From: Rickettsiales bacterium
GTDB taxonomy: Bacteria; Pseudomonadota; Alphaproteobacteria; Rickettsiales; UBA1997
Assembly (NCBI GenBank): GCA_005787525.1
Contig: SYAR01000033.1
Location: 1-45,402 of the forward strand
Direction: 5' to 3'
Length of the DNA stretch: 45,402 nt
This document shows, piece by piece, positions 3,263-43,711 of this stretch. The notes beneath the pieces were generated by a model, which was given only the letters and a program-made list of their open reading frames with translations, had not been told where the DNA came from and ran no database searches. Position 1 is the first letter of the stretch, and every line of letters begins with the position of its first letter. The position numbers and the translations under genes are program-made.

Positions 3263-3653
3263 AAGATTAAATCCAAGCAAAAAAGGCAAAATTGAAATCA
3301 TTCCAATGATTGATGTGATGTTTTTTTTATTGGCAACTTTTATTTTAGCATCGATCGCCATGCAGAAATATCAAGGCGTCGCGGTTAATTTGAATAAGGG
3401 CAGTGCCGAAAATATTAGCGAACAACTGCAATCAATAACTATCAGCATAACTCATGATAATCTCATTTATATCAACAAAAATCAAGTTTTGCCAAGTGAA
3501 GTTGCGAATAATTTAGAAAAGTTAATTAATGATAAAAATAATAATATTTTAATTGCCAGCGATGAAAATTCCAAACAAGGTGTCGTCATGCAAGCGATGC
3601 TTGAAGCCAAAAAAGCTGGAGCAAAAAAATTCTCATTCATTGTGAAAAATTGA
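3252..3653 (+). CDS. exbD: ExbD/TolR-type biopolymer transport protein
   Basis: A 133-residue inner-membrane protein. A short basic cytoplasmic N-terminus is followed by one membrane helix containing IPMIDVMFFLLATF, where Asp21 is the conserved protonatable residue of the family. The remainder is a small periplasmic domain. The start overlaps the end of exbB by 11 nt, so the two are translationally coupled, as expected for subunits of one complex. Confidence 0.92.
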   Translation: MKIKRLNPSKKGKIEIIPMIDVMFFLLATFILASIAMQKYQGVAVNLNKGSAENISEQLQSITISITHDNLIYINKNQVLPSEVANNLEKLINDKNNNILIASDENSKQGVVMQAMLEAKKAGAKKFSFIVKN

Positions 3654-3655
3654 AT

Positions 3656-4210
3656 ATGATTTACCCGCTTCGAAGCTACGCAATCGCTATTTTATGCTAT
3701 TTATCAATAATTATTTTTATTGGTTTAAAAGAAAAAAATAACGAAAAAAATCCGTTAATTTCTTTGGAAATTGAAGCCGATTTCATTGGGCTCGTCAATC
3801 AACATCAAGAAAAATCAACAAGGCAAAAAGAAAAAAATATTAACAAAATTTTACTTCCGCAAATTTCCAAAAAAGAATTTAACGAAAAACAAGAAATTGA
3901 ACCGCACCAAGAAAATAAAGAGCTTGAGACCACTAATTCCAAAAATAATTTAAACGCAAAAAAAGTTGCTCCACTTTTTCAACCACTTCCTGAAATTCCT
4001 TTTGACATGCGAAGCGAGGCTTTTTCGACTAAAATTATTGCTAAATTTTATATTGAAAAAGATGGCAGTGTAAGCGATGTCGAATTACTTGAAATTTCAC
4101 ACAATCCGCGCTTAAATTTGTTGCTTTTAAAGTCTTTAAAAAAATGGCGCTTTGAGCCTTCGAATCAAGCTTTGACGCAGTTCATAAATGTTAAATTTGA
4201 AGTAAATTAA
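3656..4210 (+). CDS. tonB: TonB energy transducer
   Basis: A 184-residue protein with an N-terminal membrane anchor (about residues 5-22), a charged Lys/Glu/Asn-rich linker, and a TonB C-terminal domain (about 105-184). The C-terminal domain shows the typical pattern around FYIEKDGSVSDVELLEIS and LKKWRFEP. The linker lacks the long Pro-Glu/Pro-Lys repeats of classical TonB. The ATG at 3656 is preferred. A TTG at 3650, overlapping the exbD stop codon, is an alternative that would add two residues. It is the last gene of the receptor-exbB-exbD operon and should couple this complex to the receptor across the periplasm. Confidence 0.88.
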   Translation: MIYPLRSYAIAILCYLSIIIFIGLKEKNNEKNPLISLEIEADFIGLVNQHQEKSTRQKEKNINKILLPQISKKEFNEKQEIEPHQENKELETTNSKNNLNAKKVAPLFQPLPEIPFDMRSEAFSTKIIAKFYIEKDGSVSDVELLEISHNPRLNLLLLKSLKKWRFEPSNQALTQFINVKFEVN

Positions 4211-4214
4211 ATTT

Positions 4215-4491
4215 GCTTACGCAAATTTAGGGAGAATTTGAATCGCTACGTCGCGAATGAATCGCGACATTCGCGATGAATATTTGCTCTTTAGATTTTC
4301 CTCGTTGATAAACGCTTCATCTTTTTTTTCAAAAAAGATTCGCGACTGGGATTGCTTCGCTTCGCTCATGATCCCGTTATTCGCTAAAAATAGCCGTTTA
4401 GGCTATTTTTTTAACGCGAATAACCTTACGCAAATTTAGAAAGAAGTTGAATCGCTTCGGGCGAACTAAATTCGCCCATTCGCGATGAGAT
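4215..4491 (+). repeat. Structured hairpin repeat, locus 1 (one full unit plus partial second unit)
   Basis: This locus fills the junction between convergent tonB and dsbB. The unit at 4244-4425 carries four hairpins. They are GTCGCGA/TCGCGAC (4250-4268), ATCTTTTTT/AAAAAAGAT (4319-4339), GGGAT/ATCCC (4348-4375), and the nested GTTATTCGC/GCGAATAAC (4376-4424) around AAAAATAGCC/GGCTATTTTT (4386-4410). The beginning recurs as a partial direct copy at 4424-4491, with CTTACGCAAATTTAG at both starts and a new stem GGGCGAA/TTCGCCC (4459-4477). Close copies lie on the opposite strand at 18326-18714. The innermost stem followed by a T-run could end transcription. The short open frame across it (4257-4439) is judged not to be a gene. 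Confidence 0.9.
4386..4412. terminator. Probable bidirectional terminator inside repeat locus 1
   Basis: A perfect 10-bp stem AAAAATAGCC/GGCTATTTTT with a five-base loop GTTTA is followed on the plus strand by an unbroken T-run. On the minus strand it also ends in a T-run. It lies between the convergent tonB and dsbB genes, where a two-way terminator is expected. Confidence 0.6.
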
Positions 4492-18315: not shown

Positions 18316-18325
18316 ATTTAACATT

Positions 18326-18531
18326 CGAAGAAAAAGATGAAGCGTTTATCAACAAGGAAAATCTAAAAACCCAAATCTTATCGCGAATACGGCGATTTAC
18401 TCGCCACGAAGGTTATTTGCGTTAAAAAAATAGCCTAAACGGCTATTTTTAGCAAATAACGGGACAAGGAGCGAATGCGACGCGGTCCCAGTCGCTGAAG
18501 TCGTCTTCGAAATCAAAATGAAATTTTGATT
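18326..18531 (-). repeat. Structured hairpin repeat, locus 2, divergent copy C
   Basis: A diverged copy of the repeat at 4244-4425, in opposite orientation and head-to-tail with the next copy. Its stems keep pairing while the bases differ: GGCGA/TCGCC (18391-18405), GTTATTTGC/GCAAATAAC around the invariant AAAAATAGCC/GGCTATTTTT stem, GGGAC/GTCCC, and a different hairpin AATCAAAAT/ATTTTGATT (18511-18531) where other copies have ATCTTTTTC/GAAAAAGAT. The edge beside gene B cuts one hairpin in half. Confidence 0.85.
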
Positions 18532-18714
18532 GGTTATTCGCGTTTAAAAAATAGCCTAAACGGCTATTTTTAGCGAATAACGGGATCATGAGCGAAGCGA
18601 AGCAATCCCCGTCGTGAATCTTTTTCGAAGAAAAAGATGAAACGTTTATCCACAAAGAAAATCTAAAAACTTAAAAATTCATCGCGAATGTCGCGATTCA
18701 TTCGCGACGAAGCG
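18532..18714 (-). repeat. Structured hairpin repeat, locus 2, copy B
   Basis: Read on the minus strand this copy is nearly identical, about nine bases in ten by eye, to 4244-4425. It includes GTCGCGA/TCGCGAC (18690-18708), ATCTTTTTC/GAAAAAGAT, GGGAT/ATCCC, and GTTATTCGC/GCGAATAAC around AAAAATAGCC/GGCTATTTTT. It lies between convergent gene B and the permease. The open frame across it (18449-18655) resembles the one in locus 1 only because the DNA is repeated; it is not called as a gene. Confidence 0.9.
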
Positions 18715-18721
18715 TTGCGAT

Positions 18722-18868
18722 AAATTCGGTCGCATCATTTAAGAAGCACACAAAATAACGCTTCCAATCTTAAATCAGGCGATTGAATTTGAAGGCGAGT
18801 CTGCGTAAGCCTAGTAAATCTAGGCGCGCAAAGACGAGACCTGAAAAATTCGGTCGCATCATTTAAGA
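18722..18868. repeat. Second repeat element: 23-bp direct repeats flanking a hairpin
   Basis: A 23-bp sequence starting AAATTCGGTCGCATC occurs identically at 18722-18744 and 18846-18868. Between them is a long hairpin at 18799-18835: GTCT, GCG and GCCTAG pair with CTAGGC, CGC and AGAC around the loop TAAAT. Further pairing of TCAGG (18775-18779) with CCTGA (18840-18844) is possible. It is unlike the first repeat family. It could be a small mobile palindromic element with a duplicated end, or a structured RNA. Its minus strand is open for about 43 codons. Confidence 0.6.
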
Positions 18869-39178: not shown

Positions 39179-42100
39179 ATGCTCTTTGCTAAAAAAATAA
39201 AACACATTTTGTTATTAGTTTTTTTAGTAAGCTTTCTCGGTTCCTGTGATAGAGGATGTTATGAAGCTGATGAATTTTATTCCAAAGTTTTTACCGTTAC
39301 AGCCAATCCAAAAAAAGAAAATGTCCCTGCCGAAAAACCTGGAACTCAAATTGCCACAAACATGTCATCCACGCAAAATGTTTTTGGAACTTATGATCAA
39401 CATACTGGCGGTCAAATGTCGGAATGGATGGATACGGGTCTTATTTCAAATGGTGATTATTTTTTAATTTCAATCTCGGGCGGTTGGACGGATAAAGGAG
39501 GGGCTCGCAATGATAGTCAAATCTCAGCTCTTGATTCTTGCAGATATTGCATAAAGTCAACTGCACAAGGCGCTTCACCAAGCCAGGATAATTGTTTATG
39601 CGGTCCAATTTTAGATGATGCAGAAATGCAAAATGCAGGTGCTTTACATTGGGATACTCCCCAATTTGAAGATTACAAAGTTGATGATACTAAAACGTCA
39701 TCAAGTGACAAATGTTATGCTTCTGAAGAGAATGTCGCAGATTATAAAATAATACCGGTCCCACCAACTTTTGAATTATCTCGTGGCTCCCTTCCTTCAG
39801 GGGCAAAAGCTGACGATCCCAATTTTTGCACATGCAAAAATCCAACCTCTTCTCAAAAAGCAGAAATTTTTCAAAATAATGGAAATGGTTATTACATATT
39901 CCCTCTGGGTACTCTTAAAAAAACAACTACACCTTCAAATATATTAAAAAATGATGTAATAGATAATAAAGAAGAAGATTGTGCTCATAAAATGGGTTTC
40001 GGAGCTTATATATCTTTGGATGGGCTGGCAGCGAATTATCGAAATTATGTGCACGCCTACCATTTAGTTTCTCCAAATAGAGTGCTTTGTCCTATAAGAT
40101 TAAATGCTGAAGGTAAATGCAAAGATGCTTCCGGTATTGATAGAACTAAATTTATTTATACAAGTCCAAATAAACGCATATTTGCTCAAAGTTATGATAA
40201 TAGTGGAAATCCATCACGTTACCACGGGCTCGGAGATAAAGTAAGATTAATCATTTATGATCGATATTTTAATGATAATTCGGGCTCTTATAAAGTTGAA
40301 TTTTTGCGAGGCGTAATATCAACTAAAGATGGTGGCTTAATAGCTGATATCGTTAGAACTATCGATGGTTATATCTTTGGATCGAGTGTTTATAATAAGG
40401 AAACATTCACTTACACTAAGCAGAATGTTGGTGTGGTTGAGTTCATGTATAAAGCGATTATGAATGATAAGCTTGTAAAAGCGGTTATTTCGATTTCATT
40501 GGTAATGTATGTTTGTTTTTATGGCTTAGCTTTCTTTATGGGTTTGGTTGATTATGGTAAAAAAGAAGTGGCGATGCGATTATTAAAAATAGCTTTAGTT
40601 ATATTATTTACCAATGAAAAATCTTGGGTTTTTTATAATGATTTTGTGATAGGTTTTTTCAAAGATGGCATGGATACACTTGTTGCTACGATAACAAATA
40701 TTTTTGAATCCAATATGGATAAAACTTTAAATGCCGTTTTAGTAAGCGAGGAAGCTTTATCTATACAAAATGATGTTGGTAGAAAATTCATGTATGTTGA
40801 TAATATGATATTAAATTTTACTTCCAATGCAGTTATTTCTAAGGTTATAGGATTAATCTTCATTCCCGGAAAGGGAATATTTGGCATACTTTATGCCATT
40901 ATAATTTTTGCACTTATTTTTTATTTCATTTATGCAATGATTGACATAGCTTTGAAATATTTGATGAATATTTTAAAGCTCTGCATTGGATTTGCTCTTG
41001 GACCAGTATTTATTTTATTTAGTCTTTTTGAAAAAACTAAAGACATGTTTAAAAATTGGTTGGCATTCATTGGGGCAAGATCATTTGAGATCGTAATTTT
41101 ATTTACCATGCTCCATCCTTTTTTATTAATAATAGATCAAAGTTTTACAGAGATGTTAACTTTCAGCGTTTGTTCCGAAGATAAAAATAATGGAGTCATG
41201 ACTTATACCATTTATAAATCTCAAGATTTAAATAGAGGAATTTATCAATGGGTCGAATTTTTTATACGAATAGGTGCGTTACTTTTTATTACCAAATCAA
41301 TTGCCGACAAAGCTGGATATATTTCTGGTCAATTAATCACAATAGGTGGAGTAGCTAATGCCGATGCAGTAACTAATGTTGGAAGAAGTGAAAGTGGATT
41401 TAAAATTGCTTCTTCAATTGCCAAAGGAATGATGAGCACAGCAAAAAGTGTAGCTACTTCAAAATATGTTGGTGGTGTTGCGGCGATTGCTGGAAGAGGG
41501 TTGGCGAGGGGTGCGACTGCTGGATTAAGAGCCAATATCGGTTCCTCGGGATCCATCAATGATATGGTCAATAATGCCTTTAAATTTGTTGGAATAAGAA
41601 ATAGGGGGATCAGATCTTATATGCGCGATAGGCAAGTTGATAATGCTCTATCGCTTGCAGGACAAAGGGCCAAAGATCTTGGTCTCGAAGGTGCGGAAAA
41701 AGATAACTTTGTTAGACAAGAAGCGATGACATCATTAAATCAATTTATAAGTGAAAATCCAAATAAGGCTATGGCTCTAGGTCTGGATAATCATAATATC
41801 ATGAAAAGATTTGATCAGAAATTGATAAAAGAGCCGATGAAAGATTTTGTTAAAGAAAAAGCTGCAGAATTAAAAGAGCAAGGAATTTTTGGTAAAGAAG
41901 CACGAGATAAAATAGAGGCTTCCGTTCAAGAATGGGCAAAACAAAATCTTCCCGACCATATTCCAGATAGAAAAATATCTGAATTTATGAAAAAACCATC
42001 AGTTAAAAATGCTTTAAAAACTCAAACTGAAATGGGAGCATCGGAAGCTAAAAATTATGCGGTAAATTTAGTTAAAGAAGGTAGGGTTGAGGAGGCTAAA

Positions 42101-43711
42101 CAATTTGTTGATAAATATAGAGAAAATGCGGTTTCAAGGGAGTTAGAAAAAAATAAAAAATACGAAGCTAGCAAAATTGAAGGCGGTAAAATTGTTAAAG
42201 GTTTTGTCGGCGGAGTAAATATTGCTAGTAAAGTTTTACGTCCAGTTCTTTTTGATTTACCATATTTAGCCAAGAAAATTTATAATTCGAGAGTTTCTCC
42301 AAATATAACTGGCAGATTATTTGGATGGGGCGAAGGCAAGGGTTTGAGAGCTCCAGGAGGAACTTATAGAGAATTTAAAAAAGCCTACAGACTCAACGCT
42401 AGTAAAGTTGCTATTACCAATAAAATAACTAACAAAAAAATTAGGAATTTTTTCGGAAAAGTCGATAATGTTGTTGGGGGTGCGAAAGATCATTTGATGG
42501 GATTGAAGATTCCGTTAATTAATCCGAACGGATCCCCATCGAGAAATCCAAGAAAAAATTTAAGAAAATTTGACCGCAAAATCGAAAGAGAATTAGCCGG
42601 TTTATTTGAGCAAAAAGAAAAATATGAGAAAAAATTAGCAAATACAGAAATTTATGGTTTAAGTGAGGACAGAAAAGCAGAAATTGAAAAAAAGAAAGAA
42701 AAATTAGATGAAGTTATAAATAAATTAGATTTAAAAAAAATCGATAAAATCGAAAAAAAACCAACTATTTTAACAGATATGGGTTTAAGAATTGATAAAG
42801 ATGATTCATTGCCTAAAAAAATTGTAAAAGGTCTTGTTAGAATACCATTGACACCTTTAGTGACGATACTTGACCCAATATACAAAAGATTGAGGAAAAC
42901 AGAACAAAGCGCGGCACTTAAAGAGCGTCACAAAGAAAGCAAAAAGCAAGCATTAGAAAATGTAGCAAAGAAAAAAATAGATTTGTTGAGTGAAAATATT
43001 AAAAATAAATTCCAAGAAAGATTGGTGCAAGAGGGTGGAGGTAAGCGAGAGGTGGTTGATAATGATAGAGATAAAATCATTGAAAATCGCAGAAATAAAG
43101 ATACAGATGACATTGCTATTGCGTTAAGAGAAATAGAAAAACGCACAAAAAAAGAATTAAAAAAGAAAGAAGAAGAATATGTTAAAAAAAACATAACTTC
43201 TAGGATGGATTCCATGGCACCAACTCGTGAAAATCTTAACGACACTACCGAAAAACTAAAACAAGAATTTAAGCAATCGATTAAAGCTGTCAACCCAAAT
43301 GATACCGTTCTTGAAAGACTTATTAAGGATGAATATGCCGAAGGTGAGAAAGATTTTGCTTTAAAATATGCTCAAGAATTAGCTAAAAATGGCGACGGAA
43401 TTGATATGAAAAAAGCTTTGTTTGGAAATGCAAAAGAGGTATTTGAGGAGAGGGCAGGTCATGGCAATGTATTTAAAGATGCATTCAAGAAGGATGTTAT
43501 TGTTTCATCCGTCACAGATGATCCCAAATCAAATTTTGATAAAAATCGAAAAATCGCGACGATAATTCATGATTCAATCGTTCATGCAGAATTTGATAAT
43601 TTAAACAAGCCACAATTCCATATTCCACTTGAAGATCCGAATCCCAATAATTCAACAAAAGGAAATAAATTGGGATCTATTAAAGAAGGCTATGAGAGCG
43701 ACGAAGAATAA
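39179..43711 (+). CDS. virB6: VirB6/TrbL-like type IV secretion protein with lipobox and long tail
   Basis: A 1,510-residue protein. Residues 1-22 are a hydrophobic signal ending LGS before Cys23, a lipobox. A Cys-rich extracytoplasmic domain (about 24-400) has pairs such as CRYC (121-124), CLC (139-141) and CTC (217-219). The TrbL/VirB6 membrane core (about 415-740) has at least six helices, including VKAVISISLVMYVCFYGLAF and LCIGFALGPVFILFSLFEK. The last 770 residues are soluble, strongly charged and helical, with coiled-coil-like runs (EKKKEKLDEVINKLD). The plan matches the expanded VirB6 paralogues (rvhB6 type) of Rickettsiales. No other vir genes are visible, so it is a detached paralogue or the edge of a cluster. 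Confidence 0.88.
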   Translation: MLFAKKIKHILLLVFLVSFLGSCDRGCYEADEFYSKVFTVTANPKKENVPAEKPGTQIATNMSSTQNVFGTYDQHTGGQMSEWMDTGLISNGDYFLISISGGWTDKGGARNDSQISALDSCRYCIKSTAQGASPSQDNCLCGPILDDAEMQNAGALHWDTPQFEDYKVDDTKTSSSDKCYASEENVADYKIIPVPPTFELSRGSLPSGAKADDPNFCTCKNPTSSQKAEIFQNNGNGYYIFPLGTLKKTTTPSNILKNDVIDNKEEDCAHKMGFGAYISLDGLAANYRNYVHAYHLVSPNRVLCPIRLNAEGKCKDASGIDRTKFIYTSPNKRIFAQSYDNSGNPSRYHGLGDKVRLIIYDRYFNDNSGSYKVEFLRGVISTKDGGLIADIVRTIDGYIFGSSVYNKETFTYTKQNVGVVEFMYKAIMNDKLVKAVISISLVMYVCFYGLAFFMGLVDYGKKEVAMRLLKIALVILFTNEKSWVFYNDFVIGFFKDGMDTLVATITNIFESNMDKTLNAVLVSEEALSIQNDVGRKFMYVDNMILNFTSNAVISKVIGLIFIPGKGIFGILYAIIIFALIFYFIYAMIDIALKYLMNILKLCIGFALGPVFILFSLFEKTKDMFKNWLAFIGARSFEIVILFTMLHPFLLIIDQSFTEMLTFSVCSEDKNNGVMTYTIYKSQDLNRGIYQWVEFFIRIGALLFITKSIADKAGYISGQLITIGGVANADAVTNVGRSESGFKIASSIAKGMMSTAKSVATSKYVGGVAAIAGRGLARGATAGLRANIGSSGSINDMVNNAFKFVGIRNRGIRSYMRDRQVDNALSLAGQRAKDLGLEGAEKDNFVRQEAMTSLNQFISENPNKAMALGLDNHNIMKRFDQKLIKEPMKDFVKEKAAELKEQGIFGKEARDKIEASVQEWAKQNLPDHIPDRKISEFMKKPSVKNALKTQTEMGASEAKNYAVNLVKEGRVEEAKQFVDKYRENAVSRELEKNKKYEASKIEGGKIVKGFVGGVNIASKVLRPVLFDLPYLAKKIYNSRVSPNITGRLFGWGEGKGLRAPGGTYREFKKAYRLNASKVAITNKITNKKIRNFFGKVDNVVGGAKDHLMGLKIPLINPNGSPSRNPRKNLRKFDRKIERELAGLFEQKEKYEKKLANTEIYGLSEDRKAEIEKKKEKLDEVINKLDLKKIDKIEKKPTILTDMGLRIDKDDSLPKKIVKGLVRIPLTPLVTILDPIYKRLRKTEQSAALKERHKESKKQALENVAKKKIDLLSENIKNKFQERLVQEGGGKREVVDNDRDKIIENRRNKDTDDIAIALREIEKRTKKELKKKEEEYVKKNITSRMDSMAPTRENLNDTTEKLKQEFKQSIKAVNPNDTVLERLIKDEYAEGEKDFALKYAQELAKNGDGIDMKKALFGNAKEVFEERAGHGNVFKDAFKKDVIVSSVTDDPKSNFDKNRKIATIIHDSIVHAEFDNLNKPQFHIPLEDPNPNNSTKGNKLGSIKEGYESDEE

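Follow-up and report, generated by a model that had tools for sequence, protein, structure and literature searches.

The hairpin repeats of the 45,402-nt window (the whole stretch of DNA that was analysed, contig 25 of a 1.46-Mb draft genome of 92 contigs, 84.8% complete) belong to a modular family whose stems covary in more than one genus. Copies in the window's genus lie on the 3' side of genes, some of those in a related genus (g13) are inserted in frame in protein genes, and at one orthologous site the modules were found exchanged. The feature is genuine and has good support; its kind is known, its form new. The repeats are probably a non-autonomous selfish palindromic element of the kind of the Rickettsia palindromic elements (RPE), here grown into a non-coding mosaic. 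What is new is that one bacterial family holds both a coding and a non-coding branch, that the hairpin modules are interchangeable, and that stems covary with no wobble bias in the hairpins sampled best. No paper on this repeat family was found in the literature searched.

Hairpin modules, their copies and their turnover

The repeat is a chain of freely combining hairpin modules, labelled here U, H1, L, H2, H3 and H4 (Table 1). The four stem pairs named in an earlier note were all present in the sequence, its coordinates were correct to within a few bases, and the copies that it placed at 18.3-18.7 kb were real and lie on the minus strand. The TAA stop (4208-4210) of ORF 3650-4210, TonB-like by eye, sits in the left arm of the U hairpin, and the window's U apical stem stands upstream of H1 in 62 of the 77 own-genus H1 copies. 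The usual 3' edge of the unit (AACC) was placed at 4425 by edge counts. This edge was sharp, with 122 of 225 match ends on the last two positions, and the 5' edge was diffuse, with 64 of 214 match starts on the first two positions and the rest scattered; module variants also shorten the matches in these counts. Modules of the mosaic at 18719-18868 were also found beside H4 at other loci.

Table 1. Repeat modules in the 45,402-nt window.
Feature	Coordinates	Strand	Sequence or type	Basis
U hairpin	4207-4229	+	(T)TAAATTTGC / TTAC / GCAAATTTA	Sequence and ORF ends
H1 hairpin	4238-4280	+	Outer ATCGC/GCGAT, inner GTCGCGA/TCGCGAC	H1 covariance-model match, covariation
L linker	4281-4318	+	TTTAGATTTTCC..TTGATAAACGCTTC	Module recurrence
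H2 hairpin	4319-4339	+	ATCTTTTTT/AAAAAAGAT	Sequence
H3 hairpin	4348-4375	+	GGGAT/ATCCC	Sequence, regex matches
H4 hairpin	4376-4424	+	Outer stem GTTATTCGC/GCGAATAAC, core AAAAATAGCC-GTTTA-GGCTATTTTT	H4 covariance-model match 4373-4425, covariation
Second, partial unit: start	4425-4446	+	Begins at U hairpin loop, U left arm absent	Direct repeat, spacing 209 bp
H1 of second unit	4447-4489	+	Inner GGGCGAA/TTCGCCC	H1 covariance-model match
Truncated H2, partial third unit	18324-18344	-		Sequence
H1-type hairpin of partial third unit	18380-18410	-	Near ACGGCGA type	By eye
H4	18411-18463	-	Outer stem GTTATTTGC/GCAAATAAC	H4 covariance-model match
H3 and alternative H2b hairpin	18461-18531	-	H3 GGGAC/GTCCC; H2b ATCAAAATTTCATTTTGAT	Sequence
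H4	18532-18584	-	Outer stem GTTATTCGC/GCGAATAAC	H4 covariance-model match
H3 (18582-18609), H2 (18618-18638), L + H1 (18678-18709)	18582-18709	-	Same unit as H4 at 18532-18584	
Further mosaic modules	18719-18868	-	Two GATAAATTCGGTCGCATCATTTAAGA copies (18719-18744, 18843-18868) flanking TTCAATC..GATTGAA hairpin	

Further copies were recovered with the 277-base unit, which gave 72 matches in its own genome (40 of 94 candidates scored). Ten of the 52 genomes searched matched the unit, the own genome included, and eight of those ten belong to the window's genus. Covariance models, the check that had been proposed, were built from 57 H1 and 99 H4 copies. The H1 model matched 19 of 61 family genomes (3 of 14 genera) and the H4 model 28 of 61 (6 of 14 genera), in both cases including the own genome; these counts are lower bounds, obtained with stricter filters. 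H1 and H4 counts were uncoupled (58 H1 and 2 H4 in G077, 0 H1 and 9 H4 in G068), so that the modules seem to spread separately.

In the GTDB contig collection the exact H4 core occurred in 61 stretches, which come from five metagenome assemblies; no viral contig had it, and a phage origin was therefore rejected. Two of the five assemblies bear the title 'uncultured Alphaproteobacteria', the other three 'Rickettsia typhi' (CAMDCJ, CAMCSJ and CAMDMO; e.g. L123, L126, L139, L158). The species label of these three looks wrong, and the sample names, taken alone, suggest a lake origin of the assemblies with the exact core. A number of contigs end inside a copy (e.g. G000:C4:1-319, G000:C29:1-120 and G000:C48:14333-14449); copy numbers are therefore lower bounds, and the repeats probably break assemblies. 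Despite these repeat-ended contigs an assembly artefact was rejected, because copies are also found away from contig ends, those of the window among them, and in several different assemblies.

Comparison of sites between relatives showed module exchange at L022, where G000 and G005 have the junction GCAAATAACAGTTGAG in common and the modules preceding it (5') differ. In G005 the left arm GCTCTTCGC does not pair with the right arm GCAAATAAC; mismatched arms can therefore arise through exchange of halves. G009 retains only the last bases at this site, and G004, G006 and G001 are without the repeat. A MITE would show terminal inverted repeats and a target-site duplication; at the empty site in G004, the sole orthologous one, a duplication was not readable because the gene end differs there too, and no such duplication was readable from any of the empty sites compared. 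At L007, compared in G004, G005 and G009, the copy was present in G000 only (G006 gave a partial match). The TonB-DsbB order is apparently kept without the repeat in G003 and G008, as judged by eye in sequences too diverged for alignment. Behind the potassium transporter the relatives compared, one of which had 51 bases only and none of which was clearly syntenic, showed no repeat, and the L010 flank gave short matches only. A candidate uninterrupted parent was present for 29 of 43 right-flank classes of junctions, some of these parents being chance AT-rich matches, and the joint fell strictly within a helix in 6 of those 29, against a baseline of 46%.

Other arrangements were seen at single loci. 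About 90 bp (H1 and a TTTAAGATTGAAAGC module) are duplicated on either side of an L-H2-H3-H4 block at L007:1376-1780, resembling the U-H1 duplication at 4215-4491. A local expansion of the U module was observed at L041:1391-1579, where the 52-base unit AAATTTGCTTACGCAAATTTAGCTTTCAGTTGAATCGCTTCTGCTACGCATT stands in tandem and its later copies have diverged. Larger palindromes (CCCCCCACGGCT...AGCC...CTCAAGGGGGGAGC) with an H4 hairpin in the middle occur at L049:1450-2550, L046:1380-1860 and L021; they are apparently another repeat family that has acquired H4.

Covariation of the stems and the level of pairing

The paired substitutions that the earlier note had seen between a few copies exceeded chance in larger sets. 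In the gap-free alignment of 57 H1 copies (52 distinct; four false regex matches were removed from 61), 96.3% of the cells were paired, and 98 cells were changed on both sides vs 31.6 after shuffling, a value reached by 0 of 500 shuffles. Sliding by 1-3 columns as a control gave at most 19 double-changed cells. The 99 H4 copies (65 distinct; 6 of 105 matches omitted) had 60 double-changed cells vs 26.9 in shuffles (0 of 500). These shuffle tests are inflated by the relatedness of the copies, and two of the five covariation measures were not clearly above shuffles: the count of pairs that changed on both sides was reached in 105 (H1) and 100 (H4) of 500 shuffles, and the number of further pair types in 480 (H1) and 33 (H4) of 500.

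The outer stem of H1, ATCGC/GCGAT, was 99.6% paired and changed pairwise in four rows. Its inner stem, changed on both sides at six of seven pairs, occurs in whole types (ACGGCGA/TCGCCGT, GTCGCGA/TCGCGAC, GGGCGAA/TTCGCCC and rarer ones), and copies whose flanks are nearly identical differ by whole stem blocks. In a separate count of 131 copies, the outer stem of H4 was perfect in 61 vs a shuffled mean of 19.5 and maximum of 31 (2000 shuffles), perfectly matched arms being the most frequent single state. Pairing at the two variable positions of H3 was found in 78 of 95 regex matches (GGGAT/ATCCC in 55, GGGAC/GTCCC in 19).

The strongest covariation test is that on genera outside the building of the H1 model. 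Stems there also stayed paired while their letters changed, with 63 double changes vs 18.8 shuffled (0 of 500) in 44 H1 copies from 33 loci chosen as family-scan matches; this alignment leans towards the H1 model because it was fitted to it. Forty of the 44 model matches (four omitted) gave 37 distinct sequences, of which 23 had a perfect inner stem, in 14 distinct forms. For the apical stem of U, a perfect hairpin was present in 40 of 51 copies from other genera (13 types) and in 68 of 77 from the own genus (5 types). Over 89 distinct H1 sequences across genera, entropy was 0.55 in the loop, 0.49 in the linkers and 0.96 in the inner stem, and the outer stem was likewise less variable than the inner one, across genera too.

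The innermost AAAAATAGCC stem had been called invariant. This was nearly so within the genus, with the exact 25-mer in 111 of 132 copies, but in the related genus the stem was replaced as a pair, by AAAAACGACC/GGTCGTTTTT in L283 and AAAAATGACC/GGTCATTTT in L286. In these two H4 relatives of g13 the loop [GA]TTTA was kept and both stems were replaced.

Whether the pairing is kept in RNA or in a cruciform, and by selection or by copying, had been left as alternatives. The folding energy of 4244-4425 was -58.6 kcal/mol vs a shuffled mean of -38.3 (z -5.1, plus strand), with z of -4.1 for the minus strand and -5.6 with DNA parameters; values this comparable on both strands and with DNA parameters cannot choose between RNA and DNA. 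Selection on one RNA strand would be expected to tolerate G·U pairs and not A·C. In copies that had no more than two mispairs, these were GT 2, AC 4 and other 3 in H1 (4 of 61 matches being false) and GT 10, AC 8 and other 28 in H4. The 37 distinct H1 sequences of other genera had 242 Watson-Crick cells, GT 4, AC 6 and other 7, so that the sums are 16 GT vs 18 AC, from few cells. A looser count that includes chance regex matches gave GT/AC values of 3/19 for H1, 14/16 for H4, 2/9 for H2, 22/22 for U and 35/10 for H3. The H3 wobble excess was located at the sixth pair, a common T·G, and may be one inherited pair outside the five-pair stem. Since the clean H1 and H4 sets contain no wobble excess of G·T over A·C, we lean towards a DNA-level cause, in small numbers and with H3 going the opposite way. 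Pairing as such is preserved, and we think that arm correction and a requirement for the fold both act.

A scan of the window with Rfam 15 gave only three tRNAs at gathering score, and four repeat loci, scanned with E up to 1, gave only eight sub-threshold matches (best E 0.002). A known structured RNA family was rejected, as no repeat in the window or at these loci matched at gathering score. A sub-threshold match to whalefall-1 RNA on the minus strand of L021:1911-1966 (26.5 bits vs a gathering score of 37, E 0.002) is probably chance.

Placement relative to genes and in-frame copies

Genes were called with a simple script rather than a trained gene finder. None of the 140 repeat clusters, two of which came from other-genus loci, overlapped an ORF. 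The 60 clusters with both neighbours known lay in 23 convergent, 33 same-direction and 4 divergent gaps, vs 8, 39 and 22 of the 69 repeat-free control gaps of at least 100 bp from the window and 20 own-genome stretches; convergent gaps were thus enriched and divergent gaps depleted (Fisher P = 4 × 10−4 and 3.5 × 10−4, respectively). The other 80 clusters had at most one known neighbour, mostly at contig or locus ends, and 59 of 79 such neighbours presented their 3' end to the repeat. Within same-direction gaps the repeat ran with the genes in 23 cases, against them in 9, and was mixed in 1 (binomial P = 0.02). The 34 copies from other genera, in which the 3' placement bias was not seen, were in same-direction (17), divergent (5), convergent (4) or unknown (8) positions, 7 with and 10 against the genes, and 4 of the 34 touched ORFs.

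In g13 some U-H1 copies lie inside open frames with the common peptide NLPKKIKSIADAAIHSPRSNSKQTQIRQKSNLIKY. Its hosts include a type ISP restriction enzyme, a GHMP-family kinase (IspE-like by eye) and a class IV aminotransferase. With a 36-residue stretch of the peptide as query, 63 matches were obtained, confined to 5 of the 61 genomes and to a single genus; 24 lay in frames without a stop over at least 100 aa, which are not independent because G072 and G079 have some sites in common, and 39 were in shorter or interrupted frames. Thirty loci were examined, and in 17 the peptide was enclosed by a frame of 150 aa or more (two loci being repeats of the same place). The element lay more than 40 aa into the frame at 6 of these and within the first 25 aa at 11, where the true start may be downstream of the element; for TrpA a start after the element seems likely. 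Among ten proteins scanned, Pfam confirmed PrmC, OMP decarboxylase, a class II tRNA synthetase with GAD domain, TrpA and the type ISP enzyme.

Judged from the alignments, the firm in-frame cases are the internal ones, PyrF and PrmC. PyrF aligned to a solved structure (query 12-196 and 231-271 vs chain 2-185 and 188-228) with a 34-residue insert (about 102 bp) where the relative has two residues. PrmC likewise aligned to a solved structure on either side of an insert (36-181 and 267-351), and by eye the insert that interrupts it between 181 and 267 seems to consist of two elements side by side.

The homologous frame of the own genus reads IANVAIHSRRSDSNSP*, recognisable but stopped. A stop was present in 76 of 78 own-genus H1 copies, both stop-free ones being in G003, and the frame was open in 31 of 51 H1 copies of other genera. 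The 78 own-genus matches included one whose frame reached 150 aa or more, a false match (L201), and three in frames of 100-106 aa. The peptide had no match, at E up to 1, in a plasmid collection that cannot test RPE.

Origin of the repeats and likeness to known elements

According to the cited passages, RPE and WPE are palindromic repeats of about 100-150 bp that occur in many copies, between genes and fused in frame in conserved protein genes (PMC10969869, PMC2229807, PMC3767692), and such in-frame insertion is the mark of RPE (PMC2229807, PMC10969869, PMC3767692, PMC3733652). The earlier note had set the family apart from RPE on sequence, a separation that behaviour does not support, the homologous U-H1 of the related genus being translated in frame inside genes. 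By behaviour, with RPE taken from descriptions, these are the nearest known kind. Both are dispersed many-copy palindromes, the window's family by its 72 matches in its own genome, and g13 U-H1 shares the in-frame insertion, whereas window-genus copies do not. Compared with an RPE size of 105-146 bp, U-H1 in the window measures 74 bp, the whole chain about 220 bp and the PyrF insert about 102 bp. The family differs from RPE and WPE in its peptide (...SIADAAIHSPRSNSK...) and its two unlike hairpins, and own-genus copies are non-coding and chained with more modules. The window's copies lack the RPE hallmark, because no cluster overlaps an ORF and nearly all H1 copies are stopped, and the family is therefore filed as RPE-like by behaviour and not as RPE.

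In the reading that we prefer, the most widely shared part is the hairpin pair U + H1, present also in the related genus, where some copies are intergenic and others sit within genes, whose products can contain the translated element and stay intact. In the window's genus U-H1 carries in-frame stops and is joined to L, H2, H3 and H4, so that the element would survive only between genes, chiefly at 3' ends. Folding as DNA, single-stranded or cruciform, would be required for copying, joining or toleration, and each stem would thus stay paired with its letters free. New stem types would form when an arm is corrected against its partner, and also when copies swap halves at the shared H4 core, leaving mismatched arms until these are corrected. 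We infer that selection acts on DNA, that this correction takes place, that the change went from coding to non-coding, and that a mobilising machinery moves the element. A search limited to Y1_Tnp in ten genus genomes found no transposase. We put forward only tentatively, and with some doubt, a more specific version: a selfish element inherited as a fold and not as a sequence, its stems hypervariable yet paired as DNA, translated in one genus and rebuilt in another from interchangeable hairpin modules with joints at hairpin tips and stem ends, perhaps by an enzyme acting on folded single-stranded DNA.

A structured RNA at gene 3' ends, a terminator or mRNA stabiliser whose stems are kept paired by selection on the transcribed hairpins, would account for the enriched convergent and depleted divergent gaps, the same-direction repeats that run with the genes, the 3' ends presented by single known neighbours, the T run in which the H4 core terminates, the low entropy of H1 loop and linkers relative to the inner stem, and the H3 sixth pair (G·T in 35 copies, A·C in 10). 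We consider it unlikely, as the clean H1 and H4 sets are without wobble excess, terminator-like sites were barely above shuffles (1 vs 0.8; 2 vs 1.1) with H1 and not H4 flagged, the 34 other-genus copies are without 3' bias and in part touch ORFs, and tRNA alone reached the Rfam gathering score in the window. To a similar degree we doubt that neutral hairpin correction acts by itself. Template switching during replication, which copies arm onto arm, can yield compensatory changes without selection, as described in the cited part of PMC8794818, and it fits the occurrence of mismatched arms with balanced mispair types and the block-wise stem differences between near-identical flanks. On its own, however, it does not predict that loops, linkers and the H1 outer stem vary less than inner stems, across genera too, and the extended complementarity expected of it was found in only 1 of 123 H4 copies.

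REP-type palindromes mobilised by a RAYT (Y1) transposase resemble the repeats in being short, dispersed, intergenic and changed in pairs at the stems, but we hold this origin to be very improbable. PF01797 had no match in the ten genus genomes, drafts of 70-95% completeness that may lack the gene, vs 5 of 14 control genomes positive, and RAYT-driven REP was disfavoured on this absence; a GTAG or CGTC tag was not noticed at the ends in an unsystematic look. REP/BIME and CGTC-tagged repeats are dispersed palindromes as here, but REP/BIME is a single palindrome of 20-40 bp, and the present repeats are chains of different hairpins in genomes where the search found no Y1 transposase. Double-hairpin elements of fungal mitochondria are reportedly mobile hairpin pairs that differ by compensatory changes; they are organellar, whereas the window's repeats are bacterial. 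Integron attC-like sites were rejected, as by eye the arms do not fit the RYYYAAC/GTTRRRY pattern.

For the questions of how RPE move and why they remain palindromic, the present family provides RPE-like behaviour among uncultured relatives, many types of stem and one or more sites found mid-way through module exchange. It also shows that covariation alone is no proof of a functional RNA, because here the stems sampled best have no wobble bias and some copies lie within proteins. Two CGTC repeat families correspond to RPE-4 and RPE-6, with some copies in genes, in the part of PMC3733652 consulted. The BOX, RUP and SPRITE elements of Streptococcus pneumoniae are described as small hairpin modules that are bunched and inserted into one another (PMC10969869); the bunching is as in the window's family, likened by description, and the cited passage does not mention stem covariation.

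Elsewhere in the window, the 1510-aa ORF at 39179-43711 is by eye a VirB6/TrbL-like secretion protein, and tryptophan- and shikimate-pathway genes and TonB genes also seem, by eye, to be present.
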